Shown here piece after piece: positions 3,610-11,214 of a stretch of DNA of 45,783 nucleotides (position 1 is the stretch's first letter; the number at the start of each line of letters is the position of its first letter). The translations under genes were made by a program, and so were the position numbers. A model generated the notes under the pieces. That model was not told the DNA's origin and did not search any database. It saw only the letters and a program-made list of their open reading frames with translations. Origin of the DNA: an uncultured Eubacterium sp. (GTDB lineage Bacteria > Bacillota > Clostridia > Oscillospirales > Acutalibacteraceae); NCBI GenBank assembly GCA_905234995.1, contig CAJOJV010000008.1:1-45783 (forward strand), read 5' to 3'.

Positions 3610-4527
3610 TTATTTGGTAAAATATCCCTGAATTTCCTTAACGGAGCTTGGATTAATTTCATTGCCCTCATATATCGGAACGACGGAATAGATATTAACG
3701 CCCGTCGTTTCACTTGAAAGCACGCGCAAGCCGTTATTTGCCTGCGTGAAATCCTTAACGGTTATATCCGTTTGCGAGCATTCGATGAATTTGCTGAAAA
3801 GCGCCTCCTGCCTTGCATAATTATCATCATTCAGCTGCTGGGAAAGCTGCGCAAGAAGCATATCGTTAACCGCGGAATAATTCTGCTCCTGCTCAATATA
3901 ATAGCGCATCAGCTTTTCAGCCGCCTCGCCGTCAAAGCTCTGCTCGCCCGCCTTGATTTTGATGTTATAGCCGTAGCGCGAAGTGTCCTTATACTTAACG
4001 TCGCTGAGCACTGTATAATTAATCTTGCCCATTGCGTTGAACATATCCTTATAACCGCTCAGATTTTCATCAATATAATAATCAATATCAATTCCGAAAA
4101 GCGAATTTAGGCTTTTAACGATTGCGCCCGCGCCGCCCGTTTCATAGACTGACTGCAGAGTGCCCTGCTCCGTTTTCGTGCCTGCGGAAAGAGTTGAGGC
4201 TTTATATGAAAGCGTATCCAGATCCACCTGATAAAGCGTGCAGAAATAAAGCTCGCCCGTGTTTTCATTGCTCAGCGCAAAAAGAAAATTAGTTTTGCCC
4301 GAAACCTCGGGAAGCTGCAGAGTGTTATCCTCAAGCGCAATTTCAACGTTTTCGGGTGTGAAAAATTTTTTAATTGAAAAATCATATTTTATCCCGAGCA
4401 AGCCGACGAAAATCACGGTGAAGGCAATGACGAAGCAAAGCCCTGCAAATAGCCAGCGCTTTTCCTTATCATCCTTAACCTCGGCGGAGGGGATATAAAT
4501 ATCGCCCCTGTGTTTGAATATACGCAT
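3610..4527 (-). CDS. LCP (LytR-CpsA-Psr)-like membrane protein, catalytic residues apparently lost
   Basis: The 305-residue product has a basic N-terminus, one membrane helix (WLFAGLCFVIAFTVIFVGLLG, about residues 25-45) and an extracellular domain. Its central part follows the LCP pattern: TGGAGAIVKSLNSLFGIDIDYYIDENLSGYKDMFNAMGKI, later AGEQSFDGEAAEKLMRYY. Typical LCP enzymes continue with R-x-R ... RQQ residues that bind the polyprenyl pyrophosphate; here the segment reads RYYIEQEQNYSAVND, and the early R-x-DS motif is absent. It is probably a non-catalytic homolog. I chose the ATG at 4527 for its TGGAGA upstream. It is the first leftward gene beside the origin. Confidence 0.65.
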   Translation of the reverse strand: MRIFKHRGDIYIPSAEVKDDKEKRWLFAGLCFVIAFTVIFVGLLGIKYDFSIKKFFTPENVEIALEDNTLQLPEVSGKTNFLFALSNENTGELYFCTLYQVDLDTLSYKASTLSAGTKTEQGTLQSVYETGGAGAIVKSLNSLFGIDIDYYIDENLSGYKDMFNAMGKINYTVLSDVKYKDTSRYGYNIKIKAGEQSFDGEAAEKLMRYYIEQEQNYSAVNDMLLAQLSQQLNDDNYARQEALFSKFIECSQTDITVKDFTQANNGLRVLSSETTGVNIYSVVPIYEGNEINPSSVKEIQGYFTK

Positions 4528-4682
4528 ATTTTTCTCCAACATATTTATACAAATCCCGATTTATCTAATTCAATTAACCCCATTATATATTATATTTGCG
4601 CATAAAACAAGGATTAAATAACCGTATTTTAATTACTTATAGATATATTATATTATATAAATATAAATATTTAATAAAAGTA

Positions 4683-4724: not shown

Positions 4725-4733
4725 TTTTCAACA
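4725..4733 (+). promoter_or_regulatory. DnaA-box-like 9-mer TTTTCAACA in the dnaA leader
   Basis: The 9-mer matches the two TTTTCAACA sites of the dnaA-dnaN gap exactly and lies just after the dnaA -10. Its position suggests autoregulation of dnaA, as is common in bacteria. The match to the usual TTATCCACA is imperfect (A for C at position 6, T for A at position 3). Confidence 0.5.
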
Positions 4734-4770
4734 ATAAACGTAATTAATGTTTAAATTTCAGGAGTTATTA

Positions 4771-6168
4771 ATGAATAATTTTAACACTTATGATGATATC
4801 TGGCAGGCAGTGCTTGAATACTGCCGCCCGAGAGTAAGCGAAACAAGTATGACTCTGTGGCTGAGCAATCTTCAGTTCACCGATATTGAAAATAATATCG
4901 TTACCGTTATGTGCGAAAGCCCCGTTAAAAAGAAAATCGTGAAGGAGCAGTTTTCCTCACTTTTAACCGAGGCCTTTGAAAACGTGCTCGGCTTTAAGTG
5001 CGACGTTAATATTGACAGCGAGAAATTTTTCTTTGACGAGAATGATACGATTGAGGGAAATATGGAGCGCGCAAAGGAAATTGCCTCAAAGGTTATGGAG
5101 CTCACCAGCATTGACGACACTTATCCCTTCACCTTTGAAACCTTTATTGAGGGTCCGTCAAACAAATTTGCTTACAGAGCTGCAAAGGCGGTTGCGGCAG
5201 ACCCGGGCGGCCATATCAATCAAAACCATTCCTACGGCAATTATAACCCGCTTTTCATTTACGGTAAATCAGGGCTCGGCAAAACGCACATTCTGAACGC
5301 TATCTGCCACGAGATTAAAAAGAATTTTCCGGAAATGAAAATAATGTACGTTCGCGCGGAGGATTTCACAAACGAATTCATTAACGCGCTCGGCAGAAAA
5401 ACGGTTGACGCCTTTCACGAAAAATACAGAAACGTTGATATTTTGCTTATGGACGATGTTCAGTTCATCGGCGGCAAGGTGCAGACGGAAGAGGAATTTT
5501 TCCATACCTTTAATTCCCTCGTTGAAAGAGGAAAACAGATTGTTTTAACTTCCGACCGACCGCCGAAGGAAATTCAGAGTCTTACGGAGCGCCTTTGCTC
5601 ACGCTTTGAAAACGGGCTTCTGGCTGACATTCAGCCGCCCGAATATGAAACACGCTGCGCAATTATAAAGAATAAAGCAGCCCTGCTCAATTTTGAAATC
5701 AGCGATGAAATCGTTGATTATATTGCAACGAGAATTAAAACTAATATTCGTCAGCTTGAGGGCACAACGAAAAGAATGCACGCGGTTGTTAATATCAAAG
5801 AGGTTAAGCCGACGATTGCAATTGCGCAGGAAATTATTGACGACGTTCGCCATGACGAAATTCCCCCGATTCCGGACACTATTCAAAAGGTGCTTGAGGA
5901 GGTTTCAAGAACGGAGGCGGTTTCAATTGAGGATATTAAATCCACAAAGCAGAAGGCGCCGATTTCCCACGCAAGAAAAATGTGTATGTACATAATCAGA
6001 GAGGTTACGGATTTAACGCTTGAGGCAATCGGAAACGAATTTGGCAAGAATTATTCAACCGTTATTTACAGCATTAACGAGATTGAAAAGAAAATGAAAA
6101 CCGATTCAAAGCTGAACCGTAAAATCAGCGATATCGTCAGCAATATAAAGAGTGAAAATAACCTTTAA
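4771..6168 (+). CDS. dnaA: chromosomal replication initiator DnaA
   Basis: DnaA binds 9-bp boxes at oriC, melts the origin and recruits the helicase. The 465-residue protein has domain I (about 1-85), a short acidic linker, the AAA+ domain with Walker A (YGKSGLGKT) and Walker B (LLMDDVQF), and DNA-binding domain IV with ISHARKMCMYIIREVTDLTLEAIG. The recognition motif, nearly always GRDHTTV, reads GKNYSTV at residues 425-431, replacing the Asp and His that contact bases. The start at 4771 has CAGGAG 8 nt upstream; the ATG at 4747 lacks a site. It heads the canonical dnaA-dnaN-yaaA-recF-remB-gyrB-gyrA series. Confidence 0.98.
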   Translation: MNNFNTYDDIWQAVLEYCRPRVSETSMTLWLSNLQFTDIENNIVTVMCESPVKKKIVKEQFSSLLTEAFENVLGFKCDVNIDSEKFFFDENDTIEGNMERAKEIASKVMELTSIDDTYPFTFETFIEGPSNKFAYRAAKAVAADPGGHINQNHSYGNYNPLFIYGKSGLGKTHILNAICHEIKKNFPEMKIMYVRAEDFTNEFINALGRKTVDAFHEKYRNVDILLMDDVQFIGGKVQTEEEFFHTFNSLVERGKQIVLTSDRPPKEIQSLTERLCSRFENGLLADIQPPEYETRCAIIKNKAALLNFEISDEIVDYIATRIKTNIRQLEGTTKRMHAVVNIKEVKPTIAIAQEIIDDVRHDEIPPIPDTIQKVLEEVSRTEAVSIEDIKSTKQKAPISHARKMCMYIIREVTDLTLEAIGNEFGKNYSTVIYSINEIEKKMKTDSKLNRKISDIVSNIKSENNL

Positions 6169-6400
6169 AAAAGGGCAGATTTTCAACAAATTAATATACA
6201 TTAACAAAATTATTTTCAACACGATTGTTTAAAAAATTTTTTATCAACAATCAAAACAATTTATCAACAAATTTTTAACTGCAAGAAAAGGCTTTTAAAA
6301 TCACTTATAATCAGCGATTTAGGAGTTTTAAACATTTTGACAGCCTATATTACTAAGACTAAAAGAGAATAATACATATTAAAAAAATCGGAGGAGAATT
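6169..6400 (+). other. probable oriC: AT-rich dnaA-dnaN gap with four DnaA-box-like sites
   Basis: The 232-bp gap is AT-rich and contains four same-orientation 9-mers: TTTTCAACA at 6180-6188 and 6213-6221, and TTATCAACA at 6241-6249 and 6261-6269. Start-to-start spacings are 33, 28 and 20 bp. None matches TTATCCACA exactly; all share A at position 6. Gene polarity switches just upstream of dnaA, and many Firmicutes have origin segments on both sides of dnaA, so the 4540-4770 region may contribute. A weak TTGACA near 6337 may belong to a dnaN promoter. Confidence 0.7.
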
Positions 6401-7513
6401 ATGAAATTCACTTGCTCAACAAAAAAGTTAAATGAAGCGTGTAATAACGTAATGCGCGCAGTCAGCACGAAAGGAACTATTCCGACTATTGAAGGAATTC
6501 TGATTGAGTGCGGCTCTGATACCTTAAGCTTAACGGGCTATGATTTTGAATTTGGAATTAACACGATTGTTCAGGCAACCGTTGTTGAGCCGGGCGGAAT
6601 TATCATTAATGCAAGAATTCTTTGCGATATTATGAGAAAGGCTGCAACGGAAACGGTTTCCTTTGAGGTTGACGGAACCTCCGTAACTATCACCTCGGGC
6701 GCTGCTCAGTATAATATTACGGGAATTAATTCAGAGGAATATCCCGAGCTGCCAAGCGTTTCCGGAGGTTATCCCCTTTTCATTAATCAGAAAATGCTGC
6801 AGGGAATGGTTGAGCAAACGCTTTTTGCAGTTGCCGAAAGCGAAAGCAGCAAGCCCGTTCATAAAGGCTTGAAGTTTGAAATGACCTTAAATCAGCTTCG
6901 TCTTATCGGAGTTGACGGCTATCGCCTTGCAATCAGAACGGAAACAATTAAATATGACGGCGAGGATATTACCTTTATCGTGCCGAAAAAAACCGTAAGA
7001 GAGCTTATGAAAATCTGCGGCAGTGATGATGAAAAGGATATTTCAATCAGCGTCGGAAAAAGGCACATTATTTTTGAGGTTGATAATTACAGTATTATCA
7101 GCCGCCTGCTTGAGGGTGATTTTCTTGATTACCATGCAGCAGTGCCAAAAACAGCTTCAACAACGGTTCTTATTAATACAAACGACGCAATCAACTGCAT
7201 TGAAAGAACGATTCCCGTTATTGAAAATAATGCAAAGAATCCTATTCGCTGCGTATTTGATAACGATGAAATGAGAATTTCAACGGTTTCCTCTCTCGGC
7301 AGAGTTGTGGATTATACGCACGCAAATATCAGCGGCTCAAGAGTTGAAATAGGCTTTAATTCATCATATCTGCTTGATGCGCTTAAGGCTGCGGACACGG
7401 ATCAGGTTAAAATTGAGCTCAGCGGACCCGTCAGCCCCGTTAAGGTGCTTCCGCTTAACGACGAAAGCTTCCTTTTCCTCGTTCTGCCGATGAGACTTAA
7501 AAATGTTGAGTAA
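6401..7513 (+). CDS. dnaN: DNA polymerase III sliding clamp (beta subunit)
   Basis: DnaN forms the ring-shaped processivity clamp of the replicative polymerase. The 370-residue product is of normal length and has three clamp domains; it begins MKFTCSTKKLNEACNNVMRAVSTKGTIP and ends in the diagnostic LNDESFLFLVLPMRL segment that forms the partner-binding pocket. The ATG at 6401 is preceded by GGAGGAG. It lies between oriC and the S4-domain gene; a palindromic repeat follows its stop codon. Confidence 0.97.
   Translation: MKFTCSTKKLNEACNNVMRAVSTKGTIPTIEGILIECGSDTLSLTGYDFEFGINTIVQATVVEPGGIIINARILCDIMRKAATETVSFEVDGTSVTITSGAAQYNITGINSEEYPELPSVSGGYPLFINQKMLQGMVEQTLFAVAESESSKPVHKGLKFEMTLNQLRLIGVDGYRLAIRTETIKYDGEDITFIVPKKTVRELMKICGSDDEKDISISVGKRHIIFEVDNYSIISRLLEGDFLDYHAAVPKTASTTVLINTNDAINCIERTIPVIENNAKNPIRCVFDNDEMRISTVSSLGRVVDYTHANISGSRVEIGFNSSYLLDALKAADTDQVKIELSGPVSPVKVLPLNDESFLFLVLPMRLKNVE

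Positions 7514-9231: not shown

Positions 9232-11214
<1,983 letters not shown>

Follow-up and report, generated by a model that had tools for sequence, protein, structure and literature searches.

The dnaA-dnaN locus of this uncultured Eubacterium sp. raises the question of whether an initiator with an unusual DNA-recognition helix and an origin with unusual DnaA boxes have changed together. The initial annotation had proposed a co-evolved change in specificity, pointing to a GKNYSTV motif in DnaA and to boxes with A in place of C at position 6. The window, by which we mean the whole 45,783-nucleotide stretch that was analyzed, is contig C8 of a source genome of 2.04 Mb in 74 contigs. Judged by DnaA, the closest named relatives are RUG14311 (88%) and UBA1438 (83%), with Eubacterium coprostanoligenes at 55%.

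The initiator and the boxes at its origin

The DnaA_N, Bac_DnaA (AAA+), and Bac_DnaA_C domains of the dnaA product score 25.5, 211.7, and 69.1 bits against curated cut-offs of 24.6, 23, and 31.5, so that all three domains of a bacterial DnaA initiator are present. The start was placed at the ATG at 4771 in preference to the in-frame ATG at 4747, because AGGAG directly precedes it (judged by eye). A single PF08299 match was found in the source genome, and dnaA is followed by dnaN and then by S4 and RecF/SMC-type open reading frames, the neighbors expected of DnaA. The next listed open reading frame upstream is divergent (3610 to 4542, minus strand) and matches LytR_cpsA_psr; in many Firmicutes, rpmH and rnpA precede dnaA. 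The dnaA-dnaN spacer is AT rich, contains a cluster of DnaA boxes, and lies near the switch in sign of the GC skew (about 4 to 5 kb of the window), as in a Firmicutes-type origin. In kind the system is a familiar one, an ordinary chromosomal DnaA whose origin lies between dnaA and dnaN. Its features are as follows.

4725 to 4733, plus strand: TTTTCAACA upstream of dnaA (motif scan), also found upstream in loci L059 and L060
4771 to 6168, plus strand: dnaA, 465 amino acids, with Asn427 at the Asp433 position (open reading frame, domain profiles, structure alignment)
5950 to 5952, plus strand: codon of Gln394, at the Arg399 position (alignment)
6043 to 6063, plus strand: codons of GKNYSTV, residues 425 to 431, the start of the DNA-recognition helix (translation, structure alignment)
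6169 to 6400, no strand: dnaA-dnaN spacer, 23% GC, probable origin (GC skew, box count)
6180 to 6188, plus strand: box TTTTCAACA (motif scan)
6213 to 6221, plus strand: box TTTTCAACA (motif scan)
6226 to 6234, minus strand: box-like TTTTAAACA, missed by the initial annotation (motif scan)
6241 to 6249, plus strand: box TTATCAACA (motif scan)
6261 to 6269, plus strand: box TTATCAACA (motif scan)
6326 to 6334, plus strand: box-like TTTTAAACA, likewise missed, and TTTTCAACA in L060 (motif scan)
6345 to 6361, plus strand: weak DnaA-trio-like run CTATATTACTAAGACTA (by eye)
6401 to 7513, plus strand: dnaN (open reading frame and domain profile)

Counted from the ATG at 4771, GKNYSTV occupies the residues and codons that had been assigned to it. 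It aligns with GGRDHTTV of 8btg and 1j1v, the preceding turn being one residue shorter, and in this alignment to proteins of known structure Asn427 falls on the Asp of GGRDHTTV, which is Asp433 in E. coli numbering. One study describes the base contacts Arg399, Pro423, Asp433, His434, Thr435, and His439 as conserved among the Firmicutes that it compared (PMC7561715). Two further published base contacts, previously overlooked, are altered here, namely, Gln394 at the Arg399 position and Glu418 at the Pro423 position; Arg399, Pro423, Asp433, His434, and Thr435 of the canonical set are therefore Gln, Glu, Asn, Tyr, and Ser in this protein. Gln in place of Arg399, a minor-groove contact, is found in this DnaA and in 36 of 262 unique DnaAs, and Arg399 is reported to be kept in all epsilonproteobacterial sequences examined (PMC5043019). 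As a driver of box type this Gln was rejected, since it does not track the boxes: TTWTCCACA is present in 18 of 22 origins whose DnaA combines it with Asp433 or His433. Also discarded as a mark of the change was the shorter turn, which has one G in place of two, because 3pvp has the same turn with an intact RDHTTV. The domain IV of L044 has a longer insert (FGGNGEKGKNHSTV) before the recognition helix than the other DnaAs compared.

The gap between dnaA and dnaN holds the four same-strand TTWTCAACA boxes that had been annotated, two of TTTTCAACA and two of TTATCAACA, and it is indeed devoid of TTATCCACA, the sole exact copy of which in the window lies at 10034, inside an open reading frame at 9241 to 11214. 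Boxes with C at position 6 (C6; TTWTNCACA, the canonical class) are absent from the spacer. Four copies of TTWTCAACA were reached in none of 5,000 dinucleotide shuffles of the 232-nucleotide gap (mean, 0.048 copies). The spacers of L059 and L060 contain very similar box arrays, and across the three spacers the boxes form conserved islands (48 of 54 columns conserved versus 105 of 181 elsewhere; Fisher P, 2e-5). After the last box, the only candidate DnaA-trio seen by eye is the weak run listed above.

Residue 433 and box type in related genomes

From 339 starting loci, 311 yielded a DnaA, 262 remained after removal of duplicates and of open reading frames shorter than 280 amino acids, and 242 of these had a usable spacer; column scans and trees were based on the 229 loci with at least one recognized box. 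L340 to L346 were added later and enter no count. Because the sample was assembled by similarity to the window and from selected groups (genus g38, families f9 and f18, and an Asn-codon pattern), class frequencies should not be read as estimates for the population at large. When the taxonomic class was searched for the Asn-codon pattern, 18 of 393 genomes gave a match; 15 of these loci had no extractable DnaA, two had DnaAs already known, and one had a new DnaA (L147). Among the 133 unique DnaAs of the order draw, residue 433 is Asp in 100, His in 17, Asn in 13, Thr in 2, and Ser in 1. The premise that GRDHTTV is nearly universal therefore fails in this order, where 33 of 133 depart from Asp at 433; Asp, His, Asn, and Thr are all found in the window's own genus. 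In L027, L029, and L045, residue 434 is Arg (DRTT motif) and all three spacers carry TTWTNCACC (7 sites; 0.1 expected); His434Arg with CACC sites was not adopted as a further class, as it comprises only three genomes.

Boxes of the form TTWTxyACA were counted on both strands of the spacer at the 242 unique loci, with expectations from first-order Markov resamples. The classes below are defined by residue 433, xy denotes box positions 5 and 6, and expected site numbers are in parentheses.

Asp, 153 genomes: TTWTCCACA in 104, TTWTNCACA in 118; CC, 194 sites (3.1); CA, 144 sites (6.8) in 82 genomes
His, 30 genomes: TTWTCCACA in 17, TTWTNCACA in 21; CC, 35 sites (0.5); CA, 45 sites (1.0) in 21 genomes
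Asn, 42 genomes: TTWTCCACA in 2, TTWTNCACA in 7; CC, 4 sites (0.5); CA, 57 sites (1.7) in 28 genomes; AA, 39 sites (3.4) in 24; CG, 14 sites (0.4) in 12
Thr, 14 genomes: TTWTNCACA in 3; CC, 1 site (0.2); CA, 6 sites (0.5) in 4 genomes; AA, 21 sites (1.3) in 8; GA, 19 sites (0.2) in 12
Gln, 2 genomes: TTWTNCACA in 0; AA and GA sites plus one AG
Ser, 1 genome: TTWTNCACA in 0; AA and GA sites plus one AG

TTWTCCACA is thus present in 1 of the 17 Thr, Gln, and Ser origins together, and the difference between Asn and Asp has a Fisher P value of 2e-14 with relatedness ignored. With positions 6 to 9 left free, the Asp class (150 origins, after removal of three with Arg434) has 258 CACA (15.2 expected) and 253 AACA (34.7). 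Asn origins divide by residue 438: with Val, Ile, Leu, or Met (22 origins) they have 87 AACA (5.8) and 10 CACA (2.1), and with Asn or Thr (19 origins) 41 AACA (4.7) and 16 GACA (1.1). The 17 Thr, Gln, and Ser origins have 67 AACA (4.0) and 7 GACA (0.8). A at position 6 (A6) is common to the large residue classes, and it is the extent of C6 that separates them; the Thr/Gln/Ser class favors TTWTRAACA. Genus g38 supplied five later genomes outside all counts, two of the Asn and three of the Thr type; none has TTWTCCACA in the spacer, and one is without a recognized box.

G at position 6 (G6) goes with Asn433 plus Asn or Thr at 438. This subclass may be only a clade marker; neither residue 433 nor residue 438 was among the top eight of 424 columns for the G6 trait, and other columns came first. 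TTWTCGACA occurs in the spacers of the RNHSTVN-type loci L193, L194, L203, L269, L271, L280, and L292. The Thr- or Gln-type loci L009, L081, L092, L094, L095, L096, L109, L117, and L240 carry TTWTAAACA, TTWTGAACA, or both and are without TTWTCCACA and TTWTCAACA.

The 424 DnaA columns were scanned as predictors of TTWTCCACA, a trait present in 124 of 229 origins. Column 427 (residue 433) came first in corrected mutual information (0.253; z, 32) and column 432 (residue 438) second (0.201); by z-score the same columns were first and third, and for boxes with a purine followed by A at positions 5 and 6 they were first and fourth. The same two columns led an earlier scan of 196 loci for the C6 trait, which predated the inclusion of the extra clades. 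Of the altered motif residues originally pointed out, only Asn427 tracks the boxes: Arg432Lys, His434Tyr, and Thr435Ser were rejected as drivers, their columns 426, 428, and 429 ranking 319th, 248th, and 85th, and among 167 Asp types Lys432 occurs in 38, Ser435 in 115, and Tyr434 in only 4. In published work, D433 and L438 are described as contacting the position 7 bases of both box strands (PMC8235120). The covariation found here does not match that contact, as it concerns positions 6 and 5, and most leading box types retain A at position 7.

The proposed correlation of motif and boxes across relatives was recovered, as a loss of C6 with Asn, Thr, Gln, or Ser at 433, and the idea of linked change in domain IV and boxes survives in this form, although A6 is not its mark. 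Asp-type relatives with the same boxes, named beforehand as evidence against the idea, do occur in part, in that 82 of 153 Asp-type origins carry TTWTCAACA. In L147 and L340, which belong to a single genus of a different order within the class, DnaA reads GGKNHTTV, and yet three copies of TTATCCACA are kept beside A6 boxes; L261 keeps one copy. Asn433 alone therefore does not exclude C6. Loss of Asp is likewise insufficient, since His433 origins keep C6 (17 of 30).

Ancestry, composition, and order of change

We consider it probable that the covariation of residue 433 and the boxes is functional. It is likewise probable that residue 433, helped by residue 438, sets the bases tolerated at positions 5 and 6, with Asp to Asn narrowing C or A toward A. 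What is observed is the residue, the boxes, and the fact that they covary; that this reflects a binding preference is inferred, as is the chemistry suggested next. The carboxylate of Asp can only accept hydrogen bonds, and the amide of Asn can both give and accept them, a pattern suited to adenine in the major groove. Asn at 433 would thus favor A6 and weaken C6, and Ser, Thr, or Gln, mostly together with Lys438, would shift position 5 to a purine. Domain IV is described as reading the box by the N-terminal part of helix 5 (PMC5043019).

Shared ancestry offers a different account, in which a few old clades combine an altered residue (Asn, Thr, Gln, or Ser) with A6 by chance and without a functional link. 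Many altered rows do come from few clades (genus g38, f18, the window's genus, and g127), and the strictest test, that of independent pairs across supported branches, is underpowered and not significant (8 pairs; 4.8 in the expected direction, 0.1 opposite, 3.1 ties; median P, 0.0625). However, residue 433 outranks 423 other columns with the same ancestry, and the altered state requires at least 12 changes on the DnaA tree and on the DnaN tree. Dependent evolution was preferred over independent evolution by Pagel's test on both (FastTree of DnaA residues 1 to 360, without domain IV: likelihood ratio [LR], 45.3; P, 3e-9; DnaN tree of 222 rows: LR, 35.1; P, 4e-7). In shuffles within mixed families, from which the 13 of 229 loci without a family code were omitted, 2 altered origins bearing C6 were observed against 21.8 expected, and none of 20,000 shuffles was as low. 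In the six mixed strata, one of which is an NCBI family name that may overlap the coded families, C6 was found in Asp/His versus altered origins at 38/56 versus 1/32, 19/42 versus 0/4, 13/15 versus 0/1, 7/8 versus 0/3, 2/2 versus 0/7, and 5/5 versus 1/2. Within the window's genus the figures are 20 of 26 versus 0 of 8 (P, 0.00015). Taken with these within-family and within-genus results, chance association in old clades appears improbable. Still less probable is that drift toward AT produced both the Asp-to-Asn codon change and the C-to-A change in the boxes with no functional link. Asn-type spacers are lower in mean GC than Asp-type spacers (0.282 versus 0.339), and genome-wide TTWTCAACA greatly exceeds TTWTCCACA in most congeners; against this, the residue adds an LR of 74.0 beyond spacer GC. 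Below 27% GC, TTWTCCACA is kept in 32 of 54 Asp/His spacers and in 0 of 33 altered ones, in the middle bin the counts are 26 of 42 and 1 of 6, and above 33% they are 63 of 76 and 2 of 18; moreover, Asp-type congeners that keep TTWTCCACA have an equal genome-wide bias.

Genome-wide box counts were rejected as supporting evidence. In the source genome, TTWTCAACA occurs 230 times versus 37 in a reversed control, and TTWTCCACA 33 times versus 35. The former figures are uninformative, because TTWTCAACA exceeds its control 2.5- to 17-fold in all 24 congeners searched, whatever their residue 433. TTWTCCACA is undepleted in the Asn-type genome G021 (133 versus 61). The 17-fold excess of TTWTCAACA was seen in G018; TTWTCCACA is two- to threefold over control in G021 and G017 and not in most other congeners.

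The main rival to a residue-set specificity is a permissive order of events, which we regard as unlikely but clearly less so than the two accounts above. Here Asp-type DnaA tolerates A6, C6 boxes are lost first, and the residue, its Asp contact no longer needed, drifts afterward and follows the boxes without setting a new specificity. The A6 boxes in Asp-type origins are in keeping with this, as is the dependent model, in which the rate of change to Asn, Thr, Gln, or Ser is 0.53 without C6 and 0.00 with it; the DnaN tree also weakly prefers unequal rates (P, 0.043). On the DnaA tree, however, the constrained fit beat the full fit, an optimizer failure, so these rates fix no order of events. 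Furthermore, drift alone predicts no residue-specific boxes, whereas Asn goes with CA and AA and Thr, Gln, and Ser go with AA and GA. A broader form of the reading in which residue 433 sets the tolerated bases, for which we put the chances at about even, is a DnaA-box code in which residue 433, tuned by 438, sets positions 5 and 6 and has been rewritten several times in one order. Asp would read C6 or A6; Asn would read A6, plus G6 when 438 is Asn or Thr; and Thr, Gln, or Ser, mostly with Lys438, would read TTWTRAACA.

Relation to known DnaA systems and implications

The DnaAs of E. coli and Clostridioides difficile (TTWTNCACA) belong to the same family and share the dnaA-dnaN setting and box cluster, but their first five contacts are canonical, unlike the Gln, Glu, Asn, Tyr, and Ser found here with a spacer lacking C6 boxes. 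In 2z4r, which we take to be the Thermotoga maritima DnaA, the motif reads RSHPVV. As here, altered contacts go with an altered box, a 12-mer, in T. maritima (PMC7561715); that case differs in being one distant lineage with a longer box and several contacts changed together. The epsilonproteobacterial variant is also alike, in that a lineage-wide box change has been attributed to domain IV helix 5 (PMC5043019). There, as that report describes, T5 is fixed, residues 435 and 438 to 439 are suspected, and footprints are available, whereas the present covariation links residue 433 to positions 6 and 5 and comes from comparative data. The mollicute consensus TT(A/T)TC(C/A)ACA accepts A6 as well (PMC3322544), but the relevant passages of that paper do not link this to any residue of DnaA. 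No mollicute DnaA that could serve as an outside test was among the 25 matches listed of 68 in a protein search of a plasmid collection. No earlier report of the present covariation was found by title or passage in the open-licence literature, and as far as literature searches show, the combination of Asn, Thr, Gln, or Ser at residue 433 with boxes that mostly lack C at position 6 is new.

Because neither the initiator nor the origin is dispensable, it is hard to study how the pair changes its specificity. One order of gut bacteria provides repeated changes at residue 433 with matching origins, of which this genome is one example, and single-residue and box swaps are therefore directly testable. 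In genomes of this kind, scans for exact TTATCCACA or for TTWTNCACA will overlook the majority of sites, particularly in the TTWTRAACA class. If the code is true, the origins of some clades would be poorly read by a classical DnaA.
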